Under the pieces are notes generated by a model. That model was not told the origin of the DNA, ran no database searches, and saw only the letters and a list, made by a program, of their open reading frames with translations. From Prochlorococcaceae cyanobacterium jk18x1bzbins.87 (GTDB taxonomy: Bacteria; Cyanobacteriota; Cyanobacteriia; PCC-6307; Cyanobiaceae), in NCBI GenBank assembly GCA_022826535.1, contig JAJDUS010000051.1:1-33480 (forward strand): DNA of 33,480 nucleotides. The letters are read 5' to 3'. This document shows positions 1 through 30,236 of this stretch, in pieces (within the stretch, counting starts at the first letter, position 1; the number at the start of each line of letters is the position of its first letter). A program made the position numbers and the translations under genes.

Positions 1-557
1 CCCAAGAGAGCACCAGGAGGAGATGGGTGATGGCCCAGTTGTTGGGGCTCAGCGCAGAGCAGGTTGATGGCATCCGCCCTTTGTTTCCCAAGGAACGGGG
101 TGGGAAGCGGGTGGAGGACAGGAAGGTGTTAAGCGGCATCATCCCTGTCATTCAGAAGGGGCTGCGCTGGGTGGATGCCCCCGGCCGCCTATGGCCCCCA
201 CAAAACCCTCTACAACCGTTTTCGCCGCTGGTCAGACAAGGGTATTTTTGATCTGATCTTTGACCTGCCGCCTGCGGCCACGGTGATCGGGGATCAAGGG
301 TATGACAGGGACAAAATCCGTCAGATGCTGTCCCAGCAGGGCATCACGCTTTGCATCCCGCCCCGTCGCTGCCGCAGGAAACCAGTGCATTACAGCAAGA
401 GATTGTATCGCAAGCGTCATAAAATTCGAGAATCTTTTTTCCCCACTGTAAAGACTGGCGGCCCATTGCAACCCGCTGCGACCGCTGCGCCCACGCCTTC
501 CATTCTGCCATCCTCCTGGCCGCCACTGTCCTCTTCTGGTGATGAGTCCTGGCCCTA
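1..557 (+). mobile_element. Decayed IS427-type (IS5 family) element, left tip cut off by window edge
   Basis: Remnant of an IS5-family (IS427-like) transposase element. The first reading frame starts at position 27 and carries the family N-terminal helix-turn-helix part (GIRPLFPKERG, then RKVLSGIIPVIQKGLRW). It then breaks; the continuation in another frame (YGPHKTLYNRF, then IGDQGYDRDKIR) follows near 180-330. The central DDE section is missing: sequence before the first catalytic Asp is joined directly to the GDQGYD block near 264-270. The right terminus is the sequence reading CCCTAG at 553-558. The left terminus lies about 50 bases outside the window, judged from the copy at 29087. With frameshifts and a missing catalytic segment, it cannot make transposase. 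Confidence 0.85.
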
Positions 558-568
558 GGGGGTGTGGA

Positions 569-802
569 TCAACCAGGCTCAAGGCGAACAGCGTACCACT
601 GCACCCGCTGGCCAGGAGCCACTTCCAGTTCACAAGCGGTATCCAAAAGATGGGCAGCCCGGGTTAAGGCATCGTGAAGGTGGTCAAGGCCAGCAGGAAC
701 ATGGTCCATTGCAGCAAGGGTCCGTGCCAGCCAAGCGGCGGTTTCCGCCTGATCAGCCATCCACTCCGCTTTGCCGGGCTCCAGGATCACATAGTGGTCC
801 AT
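569..802 (-). CDS. Small conserved cyanobacterial protein of unknown function (77 aa)
   Basis: Short soluble acidic protein beginning MDHYVILEPGKAEW and ending CELEVAPGQRVQWYAVRLEPG. The clean frame directly downstream of the glutathione S-transferase gene, on the same strand, supports a real gene; I recognise the overall look as a conserved hypothetical of marine picocyanobacteria but cannot name a family. An alternative ATG at 826 would add eight residues (MADPIIWA) and overlap the end of the upstream gene by a few bases, which would imply translational coupling. No strong ribosome binding site separates the two choices. The 3' end lies 11 bases from the right end of the IS remnant at 1-557, so the IS inserted just downstream and left the gene intact. 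Confidence 0.6.
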   Translation of the reverse strand: MDHYVILEPGKAEWMADQAETAAWLARTLAAMDHVPAGLDHLHDALTRAAHLLDTACELEVAPGQRVQWYAVRLEPG

Positions 803-818
803 GGCCCAAATGATGGGA

Positions 819-1538
819 TCAGCCATCACGCCCCACAGCCCCATAGAGCTGATCCCGCCAGGCAAACAGGGGTTCAAACAAGGGATGATCGGCGATGCCG
901 GAAACACCGCGGCCTGCCAGATCGGTGCCGGCCGTGGCGGGAAACTTCAGCCCATAGAGTTGGGCCGCCACAGCCAGATCGGCCACACAGTTCTGTGGGC
1001 CAACCAGGGGCCCACCACTGGCCACAAGCGTTGTCAGTTGCTCCAAGGCGTGCTTGAGTTGTTGAAGACCTGCATGGTGAAGCAGATGGCTGACACCCGA
1101 CACCATGCCCCCCGGAAGCGCCCCCAGCACATCCCGCAAGGGACCCGGCGTGGCCTGGGGGAGGAGGGCTTTGCGCAGGTGGTTGTCCTGGCTGATGGCC
1201 TGGAGAAGGGCGATGCGGGCCCCGTGGGCCAAGGTTGTATCGGCCCAGTTCTCCCACAGCAGGGCCCGGGCGCGCTCCTGGGGGTCTTCAGGAAGCAGAG
1301 GGGGCTCAGGAGCCTTGTTGTCCAGGTGACGGGCGATGGCCGCGGACCCTGCCACCAACACATCTCCATCTTGCAGCACCGGAACTTGTCGCTGCCCGGA
1401 GCGGCGAAAGAGATCCACTTGGCCCACCCCAGGGGTCACCTCTTCCATGACGTAAGGAATTCCCTTGGCATTCAGCAACAGCCGGGCTTTTTCACAAAAT
1501 GGGGAGTGACGGAATTGAAAAAGTTTCACAGGAGGCAT
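819..1538 (-). CDS. Glutathione S-transferase family protein
   Basis: A 239-aa protein with the two-part GST plan. Residues 1-75 form a thioredoxin-like domain (KLFQFRHSPFCEKARLLLN, then the cis-Pro segment RQVPVLQDGD at about 49-58 and the glutathione-contacting GSAAIARHL). The rest is the helical C-terminal domain, ending PLFAWRDQLY. The single Cys in SPFCEKAR resembles Cys-type bacterial GSTs or glutaredoxin-like GSTs rather than Ser/Tyr classes. Expected to conjugate or reduce substrates with glutathione in the cytosol; the substrate cannot be inferred. It is divergent from the DUF751-rbfA pair, with about 60 bases between the starts, and is followed by the 77-aa gene at 569-802. Confidence 0.85.
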   Translation of the reverse strand: MPPVKLFQFRHSPFCEKARLLLNAKGIPYVMEEVTPGVGQVDLFRRSGQRQVPVLQDGDVLVAGSAAIARHLDNKAPEPPLLPEDPQERARALLWENWADTTLAHGARIALLQAISQDNHLRKALLPQATPGPLRDVLGALPGGMVSGVSHLLHHAGLQQLKHALEQLTTLVASGGPLVGPQNCVADLAVAAQLYGLKFPATAGTDLAGRGVSGIADHPLFEPLFAWRDQLYGAVGRDG

Positions 1539-2342: not shown

Positions 2343-2528
2343 GAGGGGGGCGGAGCCTTCCGAATCTGATCAAATTATTCCCTGGAAAGGAAAAGATTCT
2401 CCGTGAGTTCAGAATCATTTAAGATATGAACGGCATTGTACTAGTGTGCCCCCTGGCCGTGGTGGGTAGTGGGCAATACTGGTGTTCGGCAAGATAAGCA
2501 CTACTTTTGCTGGAGCGCCTCAGCGTTG

Positions 2529-3428
2529 ATGTCCCGTGATCTTGGCTTTGCACTGCTGAAACTCTTGCTGTCCATCGGTCTCACCATTGCTGCGGTGAGA
2601 CTGCTGGTCATCAACGGCCTGGAGAGGCTTGCCCAGACTCTGGGGTGGTCAGCCAAAACCAAGGGACAGATCCTGGGCTATGCCACCAGCCTGCCGGAGT
2701 TGGTGGCGGTGTTGGCCACAGCGGTCAATGGCAGGGAGAGCTTGGCGGGAGGCTTTTGGAATATCGCCTCCAGCAACGTGATCAATCTGGTGCTGTTTCT
2801 GACCGCCGTGGTATTTTACCTGCGCCACTGGGAGCTGTTTAACCCTCGCTTCATTGAGGAAATCAGCTTTTGTGCATTTTCTGTACTGTTGCCCCTGGTG
2901 CTGGCCGCCACCGGCGTCCCCCCTTCTCTGGTGCTAGGACTGGCTTTGCTGAGCTGCTTTCTGGGCTATCAGCTCCTGGACCATAATCTGGCGGAATTGC
3001 AGGGGAAGCGGGGCCAGGAGGCCAATGCCCAGGCCCCCGGTGGCGCCCAAGAGATGGCAATGGAGCAGACGCCACCCAACCAGGGGACAGCCCTTGTCCT
3101 GTTGCTGATGGGAATTGTGGCCCTCGCCGTCACTGGCCACAGCTTGGGGAACAGTGCCGAATTGCTCATTGAGGCCATCCAATTGCCTGCCTGGCTGGTG
3201 GGCTGTTGCCTGGGTCTGGTCACGTCACTTCCGGAACTCACATCCTTCTTTGATCTCTACGGCCGTAGTACAGGCCAGGCGGAGACCCGCAGGCTTGAGG
3301 CCACCCAGGCCAATCTGGACACCCTGGTGAGTTCCAACATGGCCAATATCGGTCTCATCTACCCCTTGGGGTTGGTGGCCTTTCAACTGAGTGAGTGGCT
3401 GGGGCTGGACGGGCTGATTGGGGCTTAG
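2529..3428 (+). CDS. Sodium/calcium exchanger family (Na_Ca_ex) membrane protein
   Basis: A 299-aa integral membrane protein of the Ca2+/cation antiporter superfamily. It has the internal duplication of the family: an alpha-1 repeat (GYATSLPELVAVLATAVNG, about residues 50-68 from this start) and an alpha-2 repeat (LVTSLPELTSFFDLYG, about 230-245), each with the Pro-Glu used in ion binding. A hydrophilic loop at about 155-185 separates the halves. The start at 2529 gives MSRDLGFALLKLL; a frame start at 2469 would add 20 polar residues before the first helix. The stop codon TAG (3426-3428) is formed by the TA target of the adjacent IS remnant plus its terminal G. Exchanged ion not determinable. 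Confidence 0.85.
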   Translation: MSRDLGFALLKLLLSIGLTIAAVRLLVINGLERLAQTLGWSAKTKGQILGYATSLPELVAVLATAVNGRESLAGGFWNIASSNVINLVLFLTAVVFYLRHWELFNPRFIEEISFCAFSVLLPLVLAATGVPPSLVLGLALLSCFLGYQLLDHNLAELQGKRGQEANAQAPGGAQEMAMEQTPPNQGTALVLLLMGIVALAVTGHSLGNSAELLIEAIQLPAWLVGCCLGLVTSLPELTSFFDLYGRSTGQAETRRLEATQANLDTLVSSNMANIGLIYPLGLVAFQLSEWLGLDGLIGA

Positions 3429-4329
3429 GGTCAGGCCTCATCACCAGAAGAGGACGGTAGCGGCAGGAGGATGGCAGAATGGAAGATGTGGGCGCAGCCG
3501 CCGTAGCGGGTTGCAATGGGCCGCCAGTCCTTCTGTCGGGAAAAGAGATTCTCGATTTTGTGATCCTTGCGATCCAGCCTCTTGCTGTAATGCACTGGTT
3601 TCTTGCGGCAGCAACCGGGCGTGATGCAAGGCGTGATGCCCTGCTGGACCAGCATCTTACGGATTTTGTTCCTGTCATCCCCTTGATCGCCCATCACCGT
3701 GGCCGTAGGCGGCAGGTCCTCAGCACCAGTGAAGTCACTGCATTGCCCCTCACGCATTTGATCCGATCTTTTCTGAGTTGTCAGCATCCGACTCCGCAGA
3801 GCCGCCTGATGCCCCAGAGCCAGAGGTGCTGATGATTGACGCCACTGGTCTCAAAGCCCGTCCCACGGCGTCCAGCCTCAACAAACGGGGGGTGCCCCCC
3901 GCCTGATTGGTGGCACCAAGGGGGGCATGACCAGCAAGCTCCATGAGGTCTGTGACAGCAAAGGTGGTCCCCTGCGACTCCACCTGCGGAGGGGCAATGC
4001 AGTGGCTTCACCGGTGCCGATGTGGTGCTCAAAGACCTGCCGCCTGCGGCCACGGTGATGGGGGATCAAGGGGATGACAGGGACAAAATCCGTAAGATGC
4101 TGTCCCAGCAGGGCATCACGCCTTGCATTCTGCCCGGTCGCTGCCGCAAGAAATCCAGTATATTACAGCAAGAGATTATATCGTAAGCGTCATAAAATCG
4201 AGAATCTTTTTTCCCGACTGAAAGACTGGCGGCCCATTGCAACCCGCTACGACCGCTGCGCCAACGCCTTCCATTCTGCCATCCTCCTGGCGGCCACTGT
4301 CCTCTTCTGGTTGATGAGTCCTAACCCTA
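3426..4329. mobile_element. Rearranged IS427-type locus: two right halves in inverted orientation
   Basis: Both ends of this locus match the right end of the IS427-type element. From 3428 to about 3753 the sequence reads as the minus-strand 3' half (on the minus strand: GDQGDDRNKIRKM, then KDWRPIATRYG, then the right terminus). From about 3754 to 4327 a second copy reads on the plus strand, containing the first catalytic block (MIDATGLKAR-like, near 3833), the GDQGDDRDKIRKM block (near 4063-4100), KDWRPIATRYDRC and the right terminus. No N-terminal half is present. Both parts carry frameshifts. An inversion or a recombination between two copies explains the layout. TA dinucleotides flank both ends (3426-3427, 4328-4329). 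Confidence 0.8.
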
Positions 4330-4335
4330 GGACAC

Positions 4336-5589
4336 TTAGGGACGCAGAGGGATGCGGCGCCAGTAGGTGCCATCCTCCACGGCCCTGCTCCGTTGTTGCA
4401 GCGCGGCCATATCTGCTGGAATGACAGTGATCTGCTGCTCCCGTCCTTGCTGCCAGACGGTCAGCCTCAGCCGGCCCCCCACCCCCGCAGCCTCCACGGC
4501 CTTGAGCAACTCCTCCGACTGGGTCACACGGGTTCCCCCCACTGCAAGGATCACATCCCCGGCGCGAAGTCCCGCCTGCTCGGCAGGGCTCAAGGCTAGC
4601 ACATTGAGGACCAGCACCCCTTGACGTTCTGGCAGTTGGAAGCCCCTGTCACTGTTCCGATTGAATTCACGGGCCATCTCAGGCGTCAGGGGACGTAGGC
4701 CGATCCCCACCATGGCATGGCTCACCTTGCCCGTTTGGATCAACTCTTTGGCAATACTGCGGGCCCGATTGATGGGAATGGCGAAGCCCAGGCCAGCCCC
4801 CGGTCCACTGCGGACCAGGGTGTTGATGCCAACCACCTCGCCAGCCGCATTCAGAAGGGGACCACCGGAATTGCCAGGATTGATGGCCGCGTCGGTCTGG
4901 ATCAACTCCAGCCGCTTGTCGGTAATACCCAGCTTGCTGATATTGCGGTTGAGACTGCTGATAATGCCCATGGTGACGGTGTTATCCAGCCCAAAGGGAT
5001 TGCCCACCGCAATGGCCCAGTCCCCCACCTCCATGGCGTCGGAATCCCCCAAGGGGGCCACCGGCAAGGGGGTGGGGGACATCACCCTCACCACTGCCAG
5101 ATCGGTCACGGAGTCCAGGCCCACAACAGCGCCAGTCAAGGTGCGACCATCCGTCAGGCTCACCTCCACCTGATCGCTTCGTTCCACCACATGGGCATTG
5201 GTCAGGATCAAACCTTCCTCGGCAAAGATGACCCCTGTTCCCTGCTCCCGTTGGGTGCGTTGGGTGGGGGGCAGGCCATTCTCAAAGAACTGGTTAAAAA
5301 ACTGATCAAAGAATGGTCCCCCCATGCCCTGGGGGGGCAAGCGGCCAGTGGTCACAGTGCGCACGGTATCAATGCGGACCACAGCGGGACCAACACGGCG
5401 CGCAGCTTGTGTGACAAAAGACTCGGGTGTGATGGGTTCCCGCTGCGCAAACCCTGTGGGGACCACCACCAGCGAGCCAAGCGCCAGACCCAGGGCCAAA
5501 ACGCCAGCACGGCAGCCGAGGTGCGGGAAAGACCGACCCCATGCCGATGGTCGTGGTGCTGGCGTCAGTGGAGGAGATGGAAGTGCCAT
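4336..5589 (-). CDS. HtrA/Deg-type trypsin-like serine protease with one PDZ domain
   Basis: Envelope protease/chaperone of the DegP/HtrA family, 417 aa. A signal peptide or anchor covers about residues 27-48 ([20 protein letters not shown]). The chymotrypsin-fold domain carries the full triad: His133 (ILTNAHVV), Asp163 (SVTDLAVV) and Ser241 (NPGNSGGP). One PDZ domain follows at about 300-400 ([18 protein letters not shown]). The insert [10 protein letters not shown] before the protease domain is typical of cyanobacterial HhoA/HhoB/HtrA. Likely degrades or holds damaged proteins in the periplasm or thylakoid lumen; which of the three Deg paralogues it is cannot be settled from here. The stop lies 7 bases from the IS right end at 4329. 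It is divergent from the DUF2973 gene, with only 26 bases between the starts as given. Confidence 0.93.
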
Positions 5590-5937: not shown

Positions 5938-6381
5938 ATGCTGAATGAATGCCCCACAAAGGCCCCCTTGGGGTTTCTCACCAATGCACCAGACCCCGTG
6001 AACAAGAGAATGCGAACCGTTGCTGCGGTCTTGAAAGGCCTGAAGCTCCCCCCTCGCTTCCAGCTTCGGCAGGTGAAGGAAAATCCGATTCGCCTTGAGT
6101 TGACGCTGACCCCTGCCTATGGCAAGGCCCCCATCCTGGTGGGCCTGGTGGAGTCCCAGGATCTGGTCACATGGCGTGATCGGGACGGACGGGCCCCCCG
6201 TGACCTGCAAGGCACCTGGGACTGGACTGTTCGCCACGGCGCCGTGAGTACAGGGGGCTGGAATCCCTACTTGAAGGAAGCGCTCCAAACCATGTTTGAG
6301 ACAGGGCTCCCCGCCTATCTCTATGAGGAGGTCACAGGGGAGACCTATCACCCTGTGGATGGGGCCCGGCACGTGCGCTAG
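5938..6381 (+). CDS. Conserved cyanobacterial protein, unknown function (147 aa)
   Basis: Soluble protein with no signal peptide or membrane helix. It opens MLNECPTKAPLGFLTNAP and contains the blocks LKLPPRFQLRQVKENPIRLE, GLVESQDLVTWRDRDGRAPR, TWDWTVRHGAVSTGGWNPYL and VTGETYHPVDGARHVR. Well-behaved codon use and lack of internal breaks show it is a real gene. I recognise no enzyme motif. It follows the DUF2973 gene on the same strand after 46 bases. The stop codon TAG (6379-6381) is built from the TA target of the IS copy at 6379-7259 plus the element's first G, so the insertion left the protein intact. Confidence 0.7.
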   Translation: MLNECPTKAPLGFLTNAPDPVNKRMRTVAAVLKGLKLPPRFQLRQVKENPIRLELTLTPAYGKAPILVGLVESQDLVTWRDRDGRAPRDLQGTWDWTVRHGAVSTGGWNPYLKEALQTMFETGLPAYLYEEVTGETYHPVDGARHVR

Positions 6382-7259
6382 GGTCAGGACCCAGTAATGT
6401 GAGGAGTAGCCCCCTGAGGGTGCCCCAAGGGAGCACCAGGAGGATGGGTGATGGCCTGGTTGTTTGGGCTGAGCCAGGGGCAGGTTGCAGGTATCCGCCC
6501 CTTGTTGCCCAAGGAACGGGTTGTGAAGCGGGTCGATGACAGAAAGGTATTGAGCGGCATCTTCTACGTGACCCGGAGGGATCTGTGCGGGTGGATGCCC
6601 CGGCGGCCGATGGCCCCCACAATCCTCTACAACTGTTGCCGCCGCTCCTCAGACAAGGATATTTTTGATCTGACCTTTTCCGGGTTGCCACCATCCGATC
6701 CGTCAGAACCATCCGATGCCATAGGGCCACCCGATTCCGCAGAGCCGTGCGATGTACCGGAGCCAAAGGTGCTGATGATTGAGGCCACCAATCTCAAGGC
6801 CCATCCCACGGCATCCAGCCTCAGCAAGGGGGGCTGAATCCCGTCTGATGGACGCACCAAGGGGTGCATGACCAGCAAGCTCATGGGGTCTGCGACAGCA
6901 AAGGTCCTCCTCTGCGGCTGGACCTGAGGGAAGGGCAATGGAGTGACTTCACTGGTGCTGATGGCTGCCGCCTGCTGCCGCGGTGATGGGGGATCAAGGG
7001 GATGACAGGGACAAAATCCGCAAGATGCTGGCCCAGCAGGGCACCACGTCTTGCATCCCGTCCCGTCGCTGCCGCAAGCAGCCAGTCCATGACCACAAGA
7101 AAGTCTACCGCAGGTGTCACAAAATCGAGACGCTCTTTTCCCGGCAGAAGGACTGGCGGGCGGCCCATTGCAACCCGCTACCACCGTTGCGTCCACGTCT
7201 TCCCCTCTGCCATCCTCCTGGTCGCCATTGGCCTCTTCTGGTGATGAGGCCTGACCCTA
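6379..7259 (+). mobile_element. Near full-length but dead IS427-type (IS5 family) element
   Basis: The most complete copy in the window, 881 bases with the flanking TA. The left end begins with the G-G-G-T-C-A-G-G-A terminus right after TA at 6379-6380, and the right end mirrors it (C-C-T-G-A-C-C-C, then TA at 7258-7259). The transposase starts near 6448 (MMAWLFGLSQGQVAGIRPLL), keeps the first DDE block (LMIEATNLKAHPTASSL, near 6772-6825; the usual Asp reads Glu), and later GDQGDDRDKIRKM (near 6988-7028). There are stops and frameshifts, including TGA at about 6836. It separates an intact hypothetical gene from the trpD pseudogene. Confidence 0.87.
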
Positions 7260-7274
7260 GGCCGTCCGATCCTG

Positions 7275-7972
7275 GTGAATGACGAGATGCACCGGCAGTG
7301 GTTCTGGCCCAGTGTGCTGGAGCAGTTGTTGCTGCCGCAGCCGCTGCAGCAGGGGCACGCCCAGGCGCTGATGGGGGCTTGGCGATGGGAGGAGTTGGCG
7401 CCGGTGTCGCTGGATTTGCTGCCCCCGGTACTGCAAGGGGGAGGTGTTGGATACCTGCGACACAGGGGGGGACGACGCCGGTACATTACAACACTTCTAC
7501 GGCTGTGGCCGTGACCGCTGCGGCACGTGGGGTCCCCATCGCCAAACATGGCAACAGGAGCCGCCTCAGGCAAGGTGGGGTCAGCCGATGTTCTGGAAGC
7601 CTGGTGGGGGTCAATCTCAAGGCCCCGCCAGCCGCCAGCCTCAATGCTTTGGCACAGGGATGGGGCTCTGTTTTCTCTTCGCCCCGGGATGGCATCCTGA
7701 CCTTGCCAAGCTGGCCCCGTTGCGGCGCAGCCTGGGGATCAGAAGCGTACCGTATTTAACCTTTTGGGGTCATTGGTCAATCCCCCAAGCCCGCCGATCA
7801 GGTGTTGGGTGTTGCGGATGCCGCCCTGTTGAACCCCATGGCCCCGGCCCTGGCCCAGTTGGGGGTGTAGTGCGCCGTTGCGATCCATGGCCATGGGGGG
7901 TTGGACGAAGCGGACCGGATCGGACCCAGGCCGATGGTCCATGTGGTGGCGTTGGCATATCCCACGGGCAAG
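7275..7972 (+). pseudogene. trpD: Anthranilate phosphoribosyltransferase pseudogene
   Basis: Broken trpD, whose product would join phosphoribosyl diphosphate to anthranilate in tryptophan synthesis. Pieces of the family lie in order but in different frames: an N-terminal helical part ([20 protein letters not shown]), the PRPP-binding glycine loop as [10 protein letters not shown] at about 7447 (normally D-T-C-G-T-G-G-D-G), [20 protein letters not shown] followed by GNRS at about 7541-7561 in a second frame, then [20 protein letters not shown] in the first frame again, then [20 protein letters not shown], an in-frame TAG at 7868-7870, and [15 protein letters not shown]. About 40 residues between the helical part and the glycine loop are deleted. 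It starts 16 bases from the right end of the dead IS copy. Confidence 0.85.
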
Positions 7973-8317
7973 AGTAAAGACGAAGACCAGCTACACCAGG
8001 AGCACCAACAGGTAACGCACTGGGATGGGAATGAATTTCAGGTCAGTGATTCAGGCGACGGGGAAAGGTGTGGGGTGTTTAGCTACCGATTGCGACGGCC
8101 TCGGTTGCCCGAGTTTGAGGGATGGGAGAAATGGGTCTGTCTCTGGGAACCCACCCTGACGCTGAGCTGATGAAACACCCTGGGGCCAGAATTGGTTTGC
8201 AAGACGCCAAGTGACGGTCACAGTCCCGCAAGGGCTGACGGTAGAGAGGCAACAACAGGAATGGTCGGTTTTTCAGCTTCGGCACTTTGCGCTGTAAGTC
8301 TCCAAGCAAAACAATTT
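7973..8317. other. Unassigned degenerate sequence
   Basis: No intact gene. A reading frame continues out of the trpD remnant to 8170 and ends in FEGWEKWVCLWEPTLTLS, which resembles a real C-terminal peptide but not TrpD. A second coherent piece near 8190-8297 reads NWFARRQVTVTVPQ and later EWSVFQLRHFAL before a stop. These may be remnants of another gene that followed trpD; I could not identify it. Confidence 0.4.
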
Positions 8318-17077: not shown

Positions 17078-18640
17078 ATGATGGATCCTGGGCATCCTGA
17101 ATATGGCCTTCTGGGGATTGTCTCCCTTGTCATCCTGGAAGGATGGCAACATACGGTGAATCCTGTGCTGAATACGCTCTTGGCCTTCTCCGGGCTGTCC
17201 CTTGTCCTGGGGTATGGAGTTCTGGCTCTGTCCCTGCCCTTGTTGCTGCTGCCCATTGCCTTCCCGGAACTCTCCCGTCCTCGCGATGCGGTCTGGTCCC
17301 TGGTGCTGGCGATCCTGGCGCCTTTGCTGCTGCTGAACCCCTTACCTGTCTTCAGCAGCGCTGGCTTCGGCGAGTTGATTGCCACGGTGCTGATAGGGCG
17401 TCTTGCTGCCGAGGTGGGACAAGGACGCTGGGAGTCTCTCACCCCGGACCAGAGAACCGCCCTGGGCCACCTGCCCCGGTGGCGTCGCGCTGGCGCTGAT
17501 TTGGTCACTGCTGTTGTGCAGGCAGCGAAGGCCGCCTGGAATGCCACTGCCCAGGCGACAAAGGCCACCTGGGCTGCAGTGTTGGACATCAAAAGCCCTG
17601 TTGAGCAACCCCAGGCTGAAAAATCTGCCCAAGAATCTCGCCAGAAGCCTGCCCGCAAACAGTGGATCCGTCCTGAATCGTCGGATGGGGGCCAGGTTGA
17701 CCAGGATGGTGGAACCAGTTCCGAAGTCCCGGACGTGGCTCCTGAAGTGGTGACCAGCGTGGTTGCAGCTAACACTGCCCTCGATGCTGAATCCGCTCAA
17801 CCGGTTGATGGTGAGGACGGTGATCCCGATGGAGCGCCAGCAGATGGGGCAGCAGCAGTTGTTGAGGGCCATGCCCAGACCCCAGAGCCCGCAGCGCAAC
17901 CATCTGAAGGGATTATAGCCGCTGCTGTTGGCCATGGGCCAGAGGCTGGGGAGGGTGGACCTGAAGAGCCAAGCTCTCCTGAGCCTGTTGTGCTTACCGA
18001 AGGCGCCCAACCCGCTCAATCGGTTGATGGTGGAGATGGTGATGCCATAGGCGCCCATGGCGGGTCAGGAGATGGAGCGCCAGCAGTTGTTGATCCCCCG
18101 GAGCCAGCAGCCCAATCTTCTGAAGGGAGTGTAACCGCTGCTGCTGGCCGTGGGCCAGAGCCTGGGGAGGGTGGACCTGAAGAGCCCAGCCCCCCTGAGC
18201 CTGTTGTGCTTGCCGAAGGCACCCAGCCCCCCCAGTCGGTTGGTGGTGGTGGAGATGGTGATGCCATAGGCGCCCATGGCGGGTCAGGAGATGGAGCGCC
18301 AGCAGTTGTTGAGGGCCATGCCCAGACCCCGGAGCAGCCCGCGACGCAACCATCTGAGGGGGGGGGTGTAACCACTGCTGCTGGCCGTGGGCCAGAGCCT
18401 GGGGAGAGTGGGCCTGAAGCGCCACCCCCCCCCGAGCCTATTCAGCTTGCGGAAGATGCCCAGCCCCCTGAACCCCTTGATGATGGTGGGGATAACCCTG
18501 GGGCCAGAGAAGCCCATGGGTCACTCCAGGATGCGGTCAACAGTCCATCCGTGGGCGTGGTGGCGCTGGAAAGCAGTCCGGGGGATAAGGGATGGTGGGG
18601 GGTGGTCGACAGTCTTGATGGAGTGGATCGGCAACTGTGA
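17078..18640 (+). CDS. Membrane protein with long acidic Pro/Gly/Glu repeat tail
   Basis: A 520-aa protein in two unlike parts. Residues 1-100 are hydrophobic, with helices around 45-70 (VLALSLPLLLLPIAFPEL) and 72-88 (VWSLVLAILAPLLLLNP), then a conserved-looking amphipathic block, TVLIGRLAAEVGQGRWESLT. From about residue 165 the chain is low in complexity and acidic, rich in Pro, Glu, Gly and Ala. Residues 240-465 consist of three imperfect 73-78-residue repeats (219, 219 and 235 bases) carrying GGDGDAIGAHGGSGDGAPAV and AAGRGPEPGEGGPEEPSPPE. I do not recognise a family with confidence. The tail is probably unstructured. ATG at 17078 or 17081. Confidence 0.7.
   Translation: MMDPGHPEYGLLGIVSLVILEGWQHTVNPVLNTLLAFSGLSLVLGYGVLALSLPLLLLPIAFPELSRPRDAVWSLVLAILAPLLLLNPLPVFSSAGFGELIATVLIGRLAAEVGQGRWESLTPDQRTALGHLPRWRRAGADLVTAVVQAAKAAWNATAQATKATWAAVLDIKSPVEQPQAEKSAQESRQKPARKQWIRPESSDGGQVDQDGGTSSEVPDVAPEVVTSVVAANTALDAESAQPVDGEDGDPDGAPADGAAAVVEGHAQTPEPAAQPSEGIIAAAVGHGPEAGEGGPEEPSSPEPVVLTEGAQPAQSVDGGDGDAIGAHGGSGDGAPAVVDPPEPAAQSSEGSVTAAAGRGPEPGEGGPEEPSPPEPVVLAEGTQPPQSVGGGGDGDAIGAHGGSGDGAPAVVEGHAQTPEQPATQPSEGGGVTTAAGRGPEPGESGPEAPPPPEPIQLAEDAQPPEPLDDGGDNPGAREAHGSLQDAVNSPSVGVVALESSPGDKGWWGVVDSLDGVDRQL
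17795..18467 (+). repeat. In-frame tandem repeat, three imperfect units of 219, 219 and 235 bp
   Basis: Units start near 17795, 18014 and 18233, aligned on the CGGTTGATGGTGG-like block, with a partial fourth copy from about 18468. Long parts of units two and three are identical, for example the segment encoding DGDAIGAHGGSGDGAPAV, so these two copies are the most recent duplication. Unit lengths 219 and 219 keep the frame; the 235-bp unit with its flanks still reads through, thanks to variation in G and C runs. Confidence 0.85.
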
Positions 18641-26608: not shown

Positions 26609-28513
26609 TTGCGGAGGGAATTGGCGGCACGGGTCAACCGTAGACGCTCCGGCTCCCCATCCCCCTTCCACAGCCGTTGGCATGGTTTGTGGCTGGGCAT
26701 GGCCCTATTGGGGGGCGTCAGCCTGTTGAGCTGGGTCCTGCTGGTGGCTGGGCGCAATGCTTTGGCCCAGCAACGCCCTTTCCTCAATCGCTGGAGTTCC
26801 ACGGTGCTCCTGCGGCGCACGGCCCGCTATAGCCCTGATCCTTCGCGACGGCGTCAGGCCCGCCTGGTGTTGGCGGCTGCATCGGACAGCCCCTCCGATC
26901 ACCTGTACTGGTTGACGGGGCAGGCCTGGGGTGAGCACCGTGGTCTGCGCACAGAGCCCTCTGTGGTGCTGGCCTTGTTGGCCATGGCGGAGCAGCGCCG
27001 TGGCCAGAAGGGGGCTGCAGAGCGCCATTGGCGCAATCTATTGGCCCGCTTTCCGGAAACCCCAGCCAGCGCCGATGCCCGTTACTGGCTGGGGGACCCT
27101 GGTGATGCCCTTCATCAGCAACTGCTGGAGCAGTTCCCGGCTCACCCGTCCAGCCTGGCCTCAGCCCTCACCATGGCCCAAACCGCCGGTCCTCACCAGT
27201 TGGACGGCGCTCTTCACCTAGCCCGTTGGGGACCACGGCAGGTGGGGAGTGAATACCTGCTGGCTAAACTCTGCTTCCAACAAGGGGGCCAACTTCCCGC
27301 CACCGCTGCCGCCACCCTGGCTGATGCCCTATTGCGGGTGGACAATCCCGCAGCAGCAGAGGCTTGTCAGCCCGGCATTGCCCAGCCCGGCAACGCCACG
27401 GAGGATCCATGGCCTGCCATCCGTGAGTTGCTACTGCAACGATCCTGGTCCCAGGCCCAAACGGCTCTGGCCACTGCGATCAAGAGCCCCCACCTCACCC
27501 TGGCCGAGGCCATCCGCCTTGACTTCTGGCATGGTTTTGTCCAGCAGCAACTGGGGCAGTTTGAGGAGGCCCAGCGCCTCTGGCATCGGGTGACCCAGCG
27601 GGCCCCATTGAGCTACTATGGCTGGCGCAGCCAGGTGCGCCTTGGGACGGCGGGTTGGCCGTCTCCCCTGCAGTGGCCCCCCACCCTCTCCCCGGCGGCA
27701 TCGTTGGGGCCCATCAGCAGGGACGATGCAGTGACATGGTTATGGAACACCGGCCTGGATGTATTGGCCTGGGAGCACTGGCGTCATTGGCGTAGCGCCA
27801 CGGCGCCTCAGGATCCTGACACATTCTGGATCGAAGGGCAACTCCGTCTGGCTGTCATGGATCCCTGGATGGGGCTGGAGCAGTTGGATGCCGCCAGTTG
27901 GAATCGCCCCGCCAGTGAAGGTCAGCTCCTGGCCCTTGAGCAGGCCCGTCACCCCATCTTCTATGGCCAGATCCTGGCGACCGCAGCCCAGCGTCACGGA
28001 CTGGATCCAGCATTGCTGCTGGCCACTGCACGCCAGGAAAGTCGTTTCCGGCCGGCCCAGCGCTCGGTTGTTGGCGCCCTGGGCCTGCTGCAACTCATGC
28101 CGACCACCGCAGCACAACTCATGGACAGCGCCTCGATCCCCACAGAGTTGGCAGACCAGGATCTGGAGACCCAACTCCTGGACGCGGAGACCAATGCAAA
28201 CTTGGGCGCCCGCTATTTGGCCCAGCAGTTACGGGATTGGCAACAGCAGCCCATTCTTGCCATTGCCAGCTATAATGCCGGGCCTGGGGCTGTTGCCAGT
28301 TGGGGCATGGATGGCCTGGAGGAGCAACCGGAGCTTTGGATTGAGGCCATCCCCTACGACGAGACGCGAATCTATGTCAAAACGGTTCTAGGATCCTGGT
28401 GGGCCTATAGCTGTCTCCACGGAACACCATGTCTTCAAACGGCAGAGGCGGAGATGGTCCAGGACGACAAACCCCAAGCGGGCCCCCAGGCTGGCGCGTG
28501 GCGTCACCCCTAG
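26609..28513 (+). CDS. Soluble lytic transglycosylase family protein
   Basis: Peptidoglycan lytic transglycosylase of the Slt70 type. A membrane anchor follows a basic N-terminus (WLGMALLGGVSLLSWVLLVA), then a long alpha-helical superhelix region with TPR-like periodicity (EAQRLWHRVTQRAPLSYYGW), then the C-terminal SLT domain: ATARQESRFRPAQRS with the catalytic Glu, GALGLLQLMPTTAAQLM and AIASYNAGPGAVASWG. The start is uncertain. The frame opens at 26414, inside glmM. TTG 26609 gives a basic n-region ahead of the helix; ATG 26699 would begin within the helix. The TAG stop shares a CTAG palindrome with the stop of the convergent NIL-ferredoxin gene. Confidence 0.88.
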   Translation: MRRELAARVNRRRSGSPSPFHSRWHGLWLGMALLGGVSLLSWVLLVAGRNALAQQRPFLNRWSSTVLLRRTARYSPDPSRRRQARLVLAAASDSPSDHLYWLTGQAWGEHRGLRTEPSVVLALLAMAEQRRGQKGAAERHWRNLLARFPETPASADARYWLGDPGDALHQQLLEQFPAHPSSLASALTMAQTAGPHQLDGALHLARWGPRQVGSEYLLAKLCFQQGGQLPATAAATLADALLRVDNPAAAEACQPGIAQPGNATEDPWPAIRELLLQRSWSQAQTALATAIKSPHLTLAEAIRLDFWHGFVQQQLGQFEEAQRLWHRVTQRAPLSYYGWRSQVRLGTAGWPSPLQWPPTLSPAASLGPISRDDAVTWLWNTGLDVLAWEHWRHWRSATAPQDPDTFWIEGQLRLAVMDPWMGLEQLDAASWNRPASEGQLLALEQARHPIFYGQILATAAQRHGLDPALLLATARQESRFRPAQRSVVGALGLLQLMPTTAAQLMDSASIPTELADQDLETQLLDAETNANLGARYLAQQLRDWQQQPILAIASYNAGPGAVASWGMDGLEEQPELWIEAIPYDETRIYVKTVLGSWWAYSCLHGTPCLQTAEAEMVQDDKPQAGPQAGAWRHP

Positions 28514-28947
28514 ACAGGGCGGGTCTTGCCGCCTGGCTGCGCTGGCAGATTCAGACTGATGGCCCCCAGGGGGCAACTGGGAATACACTGCTCGCACACC
28601 ACACAACGCCGGGCTTCAAAATGGAGGAGCCAACGGGGCCGTTCCATGTGCAGCGCCCCTGTGGGGCAGATTGTGGTGCAGATGCCGCAGTCCACACAGC
28701 GGTCCCGGTCAATGCTGAGTTGGCCCACTGCCGTGGTCACCACCAGCCCCTGGCGCCGCAGCCACGCCGTGGCTGCCGCCAGGTCATCAATATCCCCTGC
28801 CAACTCCACCACCATCACCCCCTCCTGGTTGGGGCCAATCTGGGCCCGAATGATTTTGGAGGCCACGTCATAGTCAATGGCCAGCCGGTAGGTGATGGGC
28901 TGGTTCAAAGCCTCCCGAGGCAAGCGCAACGTCAACCGCTGCTTCAT
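28510..28947 (-). CDS. NIL domain protein with two [4Fe-4S] ferredoxin motifs
   Basis: A 145-aa protein. Residues 1-75 form a NIL domain, a small ligand-binding fold also seen at the end of MetN-type ATPases (LTLRLPREALNQPITYRLAI, GVMVVELAGDIDDLAAATAW). Two ferredoxin motifs follow: CVDCGICTTICPTGAL and CVVCEQCIPSCPLGAI, all eight cysteines present. Proteins of this plan are widespread in cyanobacteria and in methionine-synthesis contexts; the specific redox partner is unknown. The frame opens at 29049, but ATG 28947 matches the domain start. Confidence 0.87.
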   Translation of the reverse strand: MKQRLTLRLPREALNQPITYRLAIDYDVASKIIRAQIGPNQEGVMVVELAGDIDDLAAATAWLRRQGLVVTTAVGQLSIDRDRCVDCGICTTICPTGALHMERPRWLLHFEARRCVVCEQCIPSCPLGAISLNLPAQPGGKTRPV

Positions 28948-29086
28948 GGCAAACCAGACGCTGGGGCCAGCGTAGCGGGTGAGAGTCCACCACCCCTTTG
29001 TCAAGATCAAACCTTGAACACCCTGCCTTGACCGCTTTCCATCTCCCACTCACGTTCAATCATTGAAGAGTCATGGATTCCCGCGT

Positions 29087-29624
29087 TAGGGTCAGGACTC
29101 ATAACATGAGGAATGATCCTCTCACCAGAGAGGGAGACCCAAGAGAGCACCAGGAGGAGATGGGTGATGGCCCAGTTGTTGGGGCTCAGCGCGGAGCAGG
29201 TTGCCCGTATCGGCCCCTTGTTTCCCAAGGAACGTAGGTGGGAAGCGGGTGGATGTCCCTGCTGCCTATAAGCCCCCATAAAACCCTCTACAACCGTTTT
29301 CGCCGCTGGTCAGACAAGGGTATTTTTGATCTGATCTTTGACCTGCCGCCTGCGGCCACGGTGATCGGTGATCAAGGGTATGACAGGGACAAAATCCGTA
29401 AGATGCTGTCCCGGCAGGGCATCACGTCTTGCATTCCGCCCCGTCGCTGCCGCAGGAAACCAGTCCATTAAGAGCAAGAGGCTGGATCGCGAGGGTCACA
29501 AAATCGAGAATCTTTTTCCCGACTGAAGGACTGGCGGCCCATTGCAACCTGCTACGGCCGCTGCGCCCATGTCTTCCGTTCTGCCATCCTCCTGGCTGCC
29601 ACTGTCTATGGGTCCCTGACCCTA
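29087..29624 (+). mobile_element. Internally deleted IS427-type element
   Basis: A 538-base remnant with both ends: left terminus GGGTCAGGAC after TA at 29087-29088, right terminus CCTGACCC before TA at 29623-29624. It has the same central deletion as the copy at 1-557: the transposase block FDLIFD is joined directly to LPPAATVIGDQGYDRDKIRK. It also lacks about 60 bases near 29249, where the copy at 1-557 has two GGGTGGA direct repeats (about 110 and 169) and this one has a single copy. Reading frames are broken. Confidence 0.85.
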
Positions 29625-30137
29625 GGGTTTGCTCCAGGTGCAGTCCCACGTGATAATGCCGGTGCTGGCGCTGAGATACCGGGTCTCATAGGAACATCGA
29701 CCAGCAATGTTGGCATATTTGCCTGTGCCGCCCACCAGGTTCACATGACCCATGCCCCCCCGGTTGGCGGCGCCTAGGTCTCCCTGCTCCCTGGTCAGAA
29801 GGGCAAACAGCTCATCCCCGCCATCCTCGTTTGATTCCATGAGTGTGCAAGGGGCCTTTACACTGAGATTACCGGCGGATTCTTCCGAGAACACCACGCA
29901 GGACCGGAGAAAACTTTGGCCTTCCGGGAAGAGGGGACCCTGGCCGCTGGAAACGATGACGCCACCCTCCAGACTGCCTGCTGTAAATGTTGTCCTGCCT
30001 TGTTGAATCTGATCGTAGGAGTAGGCGTAACTCCCTGTCAAGGCAAACTGACCACTGGTTTGGGCGAGAACAGGAGAGAGGGGGGCAGCCAGGCCAGCCA
30101 GGATCAGCCAGAGACTGGACCTGTGGAAGAAACGCAT
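29622..30137 (-). CDS. Secreted protein with allene oxide cyclase-like barrel
   Basis: A 171-aa protein with a signal peptide (MRFFHRSSLWLILAGLAAPL, cleavage probably after VLAQ). The mature part alternates beta-strands, with FALTGSYAYSYDQIQQGRTT, RSCVVFSEESAGNLSVKAPC, GAANRGGMGHVNLVGGTGKY and a final GIITWDCTW. The G-G-T-G-K-Y block and strand spacing suggest the calycin-like AOC/dirigent barrel, a fold assignment I make with moderate certainty. Three or more Cys suggest a disulfide. Ligand or role unknown. The stop codon TAG (29622-29624) includes the TA target of the neighbouring IS, whose terminal base makes TAG from an ancestral TAA. Alternative start 30164. Confidence 0.65.
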   Translation of the reverse strand: MRFFHRSSLWLILAGLAAPLSPVLAQTSGQFALTGSYAYSYDQIQQGRTTFTAGSLEGGVIVSSGQGPLFPEGQSFLRSCVVFSEESAGNLSVKAPCTLMESNEDGGDELFALLTREQGDLGAANRGGMGHVNLVGGTGKYANIAGRCSYETRYLSASTGIITWDCTWSKP

Positions 30138-30236
30138 GAACACCGGATCGCAAGACTCTTCCAAAGTATACTTTGAAGCGCCCCTTCAGCGTGCAATATG
30201 CAATTTGATGCCAGCAACACACCATTTTAAGCCAAG

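Follow-up and report, generated by a model that had tools for sequence, protein, structure and literature searches.

Degenerate IS427-like elements lie at stop codons more often than matched target sites predict in a sponge-living cyanobacterium

Insertion sequences of the IS427 group are ~830-865 bp long, carry inverted repeats of 13-21 bp, duplicate 2 bp of their target and encode their transposase in two overlapping frames with a frameshift motif (PMC3281130). Stop-codon siting has, in the open papers searched, not been reported for this group. IS5 of Escherichia coli duplicates YTAR, and YTAR was already known as an IS5 target (PMC10359306). As far as the relevant passages of its description go, the nearest precedent in the open literature for a repeat that provides a gene's stop comes from pneumococcal BOX elements: 36 genes take their 3'-terminal stop codon from such a repeat, with truncation not clearly evident (PMC3049150). 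Unlike the element described below, BOX is presented there as a small modular repeat without a transposase, and nothing in the same passages ties the stop codon to a target core and an element end. They also report that pneumococcal SPRITE repeats are enriched near the 3' ends of convergent genes (PMC3049150). Copies at convergent gene 3' ends were found here too, although SPRITE, as characterized in those passages, is a small terminator-like repeat, whereas the element studied here is transposase-derived and has a TA target.

The stretch of DNA under study (33,480 nucleotides; hereafter the window) is contig C128 of the draft genome of a sponge-living cyanobacterium (2.49 Mb in 145 contigs), which was compared with relatives including Candidatus Synechococcus spongiarum genomes and their kin. 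Four copies of the element lie in the window (1-555, 3428-4327, 6381-7257 and 29089-29622). A consensus built from 40 aligned copies is 863 bp long, and both of its ends start with GGGTCAGGACTCATCA. When its frames are linked by X, the encoded transposase scores 220 bits against the IS5-family model NF033580, whose cut-off is 110, and PF01609 and PF13340 likewise score above their cut-offs. The consensus frame shifts near a run of G and also contains an internal stop. All copies are decayed, each diverging from the consensus by 6-20%. No transposase frame is open over its whole length in any aligned copy, the longest open stretch being 248 residues, and the burst therefore looks dead. Judged by its sequence, the element looks like an IS427-like member of the IS5 family: similar to IS1248, ISPpa6 and ISPam4 of Paracoccus, it combines a length of ~850 bp with short terminal inverted repeats, a 2-bp duplication and a possibly split transposase frame (PMC3281130). 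It differs from that group in that the copies are degenerate and numerous, with a large share in stop codons.

The target was read from 175 intact ends, where the base 5' of the TA is C or T in 164, position -2 is mostly C and position -3 is mostly C or G, giving SCYTARGS. TA flanks both sides of 34 paired copies, yet the left and right 4-mers are identical in only 17 of them, which rules out a four-base YTAR duplication as in IS5. The left 4-mer varies at its first base, its fourth always being the element's (G in 33/34), and the right 4-mer varies at its last base, its first always being C. The duplication is therefore limited to TA, with the outermost G and C being part of the element. This IS5-family element thus resembles E. 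coli IS5 in its YTAR-type target but duplicates TA alone rather than the four bases, the adjoining G and C being its own (PMC10359306). Decayed duplications in this genome, when read towards the element, give CA in 32 cases and TG in only 21. The possibility that insertion regenerates the target and thereby favors tandem copies was dropped, as only 2-3 abutting junctions were found, too few to support it.

Three gene stops in the window coincide exactly with element termini, as a sequence-only reading of this DNA had proposed. At site 1 (3426-3428, plus strand), the TAG of a sodium/calcium antiporter gene (2469-3428, plus strand; identified by PF01699 and relatives) consists of the duplicated TA at 3426-3427 and the element's G at 3428. 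The adjoining copy (3428-4327, with TA at 3426-3427 and 4328-4329) is composite: a right-end piece lies inverted at 3428-3756 and the right part continues directly oriented at 3757-4327, so that the copy has two right ends that are inverted relative to each other. At site 2, the TAG (6379-6381) of a hypothetical gene (5938-6381, plus strand) is formed by TA at 6379-6380 and the element's G at 6381, and the copy, with a degenerate transposase, occupies 6381-7257 on the plus strand (TA at 6379-6380 and 7258-7259). At site 3, on the minus strand, the TAG (29622-29624) of gene 29622-30164 is made up of TA at 29623-29624 and the element's end base at 29622, which is G on the strand of the gene, the copy here being internally deleted (29089-29622, plus strand; TA at 29087-29088 and 29623-29624). 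The label "AOC-like" previously given to this gene found no backing, with zero Pfam or NCBIfam matches. In all three cases the TA of the stop is the 2-bp target duplication and the first base of the element completes TAG. The insertion is silent, as had been argued, because TAR serves as target core and stop codon in one and the element contributes an initial G. The fourth copy is the right part of a further element cut by the contig start (1-555, plus strand; TA at 556-557), and its end at 557 is separated by 12 bases from a CRR7 stop codon (gene 569-907, minus strand). The end at 4329 lies 7 bases from the stop (4336-4338) of an HtrA-type protease gene (4336-5589, minus strand), and the earlier remark that both ends are close to gene ends thus holds. 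Elsewhere in the window, direct repeats of 69-165 bases with a spacing of ~220 bases (17797-18497) lie within a long frame (17078-18640) that possibly encodes a repetitive protein.

Comparison with relatives, which the sequence-only reading had suggested, places the native stops. Orthologues of the antiporter gene, the hypothetical gene and the minus-strand gene all have their stop, a TAG or TAA, at the matching codon (3/3 window sites), nearly always without the element; for the hypothetical gene, the position of the stop codon is the same in nine relatives. The element hence entered native stops and truncated nothing. Outside the window, 23 genes with stop-sited copies were searched for in three sister genomes, and for 14 of them, RsmH included, one or more relatives stop at the identical codon in TAA or TAG. 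In the other nine, which include a DnaA-like (C98) and a ThiS-like gene (C49), the stop is some codons off or the end has diverged. Some of these nine stops were possibly supplied by the element, which counts against the proposal that we develop below and could be taken to mean that copies landed in sense codons near gene ends, slightly truncating the products; the genes on C56 and C142, which end two codons and one codon, respectively, before relatives that end in TGA, point the same way. A YTAR in that frame is already a stop, however, and the same-codon stops of relatives in the window and at the 14 other genes refute element-supplied stops as a general explanation, which we consider highly improbable. 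At four further junctions (C4 ~1,147; C33 ~21,220; C82 ~7,650; C104 ~20,100), TA is now CA or TG and the flanking gene runs some codons into the element, typically stopping at GAGGAATGA in the left end, a configuration in which the former stop may have been lost and a short element-coded tail gained. In a sister genome from another species (G006), an element-like end also occupies this stop codon in the homologue of gene 29622-30164 (L182, near 1875), reflecting either an old insertion held in common or a repeated hit.

In relatives, the stops of the antiporter and HtrA-type genes overlap in one palindromic TTAG/CTAA, where ACTTAGGG reads TAG in one direction and TAA in the other. Common double stops are likewise seen in relatives for the C8/C78 genes (GGGGCTTAAGGAGC) and for RsmH and its neighbor (CGCGTCTAGGGGCT), so that insertion into a palindromic target can leave both genes of a pair unaffected. 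The HtrA gene of sister genome G005 also has an element end at its stop (L194). The two flanks of site 1 are adjacent in most relatives, and the right flank (4328-4340) contains ~9 extra bases (TAGGACACTTAGGG compared with ACTTAGGG in relatives) that separate the two otherwise overlapping stops, perhaps as a small tandem duplication of the stop region. At the other two sites, the right flank of site 2 (7258-8300), a decayed sequence related to PF00591 glycosyltransferases, and the left flank of site 3 (28500-29088) lie elsewhere in relatives where found and are not the ancestral neighbors. The picture recurs outside the window, where gene pairs that are adjacent and convergent in relatives (C8/C78; the C81 gene RsmH and its neighbor, found on C85) are split between separate copies of the element. 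The simplest reading is recombination between copies, which probably brought flanks of different origin together; assembly joins are a possible alternative source, but the copies diverge from their consensus by 6-20%. Joining the flanks across each copy had previously suggested ancestral stops of TAG, TAG and TAA. This approach stands at site 1 but fails at sites 2 and 3, where the flanks are non-contiguous in relatives, and at site 3 the aligned relatives have TAG instead of TAA. Joined flanks were therefore dropped as evidence for ancestral stops and replaced by one-sided junction tests and orthologues.

Stop siting was assessed in the stretches around located copies, which amount to 747 kb or 30% of the one draft genome. 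Genes were called with a home-made three-periodic Markov caller trained on these same stretches, and each junction was classed from its outer flank alone, so that rearrangement does not matter. Motif-weighted, matched half-sites processed with the same gene caller served as background. Of the 156 intact TA junctions, 26 coincided exactly with a stop, 128 were intergenic and only 2 lay within genes, compared with 2.9% stops, 24% coding and 73% intergenic among background sites (stops being 3.9% of non-coding sites). The target-matched background thus predicts 5-6 stop junctions against the 26 observed, and ~37 coding junctions against 2 (p ~3e-16, approximate). Outside the window, 23/149 junctions were on stops versus 2.9% of matched half-sites; tested against the 3.9% of non-coding sites, these 23 stops gave p ~1.5e-8 (approximate; junctions are not fully independent). 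The excess was unchanged across gene-caller thresholds of 3 to 20. Paired copies alone gave 11/52 junctions on stops and none in coding sequence, with 9.3% stops expected among non-coding sites (p = 0.007). Since the TA of a stop is kept by selection while other TAs decay, the 26/156 excess is biased upward and was recomputed with the 35 non-stop junctions that now read CA or TG; with decayed junctions included, 23/185 junctions outside the window (12.4%) were on stops versus 3.9%, a 3.2-fold excess (p ~1e-6, approximate). Related elements in sister genomes, judged against the background of the window's genome, had 7 of ~42 junctions at stops, a similar rate. A count against background sites, as the sequence-only reading had proposed, accordingly yields a real genome-wide stop excess that recurs in sister genomes. 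Several element ends in sister genomes (L326-L355; G002, G005 and G006) lie 11-50 bases upstream of predicted gene starts, a distance at which they could influence expression.

The pattern might be suspected to be an artefact, whether of the assembly, the gene calls or the choice of sample, as the assembly is a draft in 145 contigs, flanks are non-adjacent in relatives, the gene caller is home-made and the ascertainment bias (stop TAs being kept while others decay) is real. However, the one-sided junction test is independent of flank joining and its background passed through the same caller, thresholds of 3 to 20 agree, the p value outside the window remains at ~1e-6 after correction for decay, and native stops were confirmed in relatives. 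Divergence of 6-20% from the consensus also makes collapsed repeats unlikely, and we give this explanation almost no credence. What can be defended is that the copies that survive cluster at the 3' ends of genes, including the stop codon itself, and are depleted from coding sequence.

To explain this pattern, we think it probable that a SCYTARGS target with its TAR stop, an element that starts with G and selection against damage suffice, and that gene-end targeting is unneeded. The IS427-like IS5-family element enters the palindromic SCYTARGS and duplicates its central TA. With TAR being a stop on either strand, every gene end in Y-TAA or Y-TAG is a target, and a convergent gene pair can present one common double stop. 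As the element starts with G and ends with C, its insertion regenerates Y-TA-G at one junction and C-TA-R at the opposite one, and the gene keeps its stop at the original codon. Insertions within genes would be purged by selection while those in stops and other harmless places would stay, and the surviving copies would hence look as if aimed at stops. The data show the target motif, the TA duplication, the native position of the stops, their excess and the scarcity of copies in genes; from these we infer that the excess is due to differential survival and not to a choice made by the transposase. What speaks against this proposal is that equal safety of all non-coding SCYTARGS sites would give ~4% stops and not the observed 12-17%, such that survival must purge most other non-coding insertions too, or the caller missed many background genes.

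The same discrepancy, in which stops exceed the motif-matched expectation for all non-coding sites 3- to 4-fold, could alternatively arise if stops or 3' ends were actively favored beyond SCYTARGS, either by the transposase itself or by local DNA conditions where genes end (terminators or convergent transcription). The similar stop rate in sister genomes agrees with such targeting, as does a comparison restricted to intact TA junctions, in which stops outnumber sites 1-100 bases downstream by 23:9 (background 129:179, p = 0.0006). When decayed junctions are included, however, the excess over these nearby sites becomes 23:20 (background 42%) and is not significant (p = 0.08), and the near absence from coding sequence shows that selection acts with sufficient strength to shape the distribution. 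We regard this alternative as rather unlikely. In a more specific form, the insertion machinery would recognize gene 3' ends or convergent double stops beyond SCYTARGS; this is unlikely, and if true, the transposon would reach safe ground at stops by targeting and not by survival alone. The earlier suggestion of either a survival bias or a targeting preference is thus strongly supported for survival, given the depletion from coding sequence, but not for targeting beyond SCYTARGS.

What seems new is the quantified tie between target core, element end and stop codon, together with the double-stop case. The target core is a stop in one frame per strand and the element's first base completes the codon, which offers a concrete route by which a transposon can become abundant in a bacterium while its genes stay functional, and makes "safe insertion" countable. 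Old copies in stop codons appear to persist as harmless inserts that leave the protein unchanged and, as copies at gene ends seem to have recombined, the findings suggest that gene order could be reshuffled without breaking genes.
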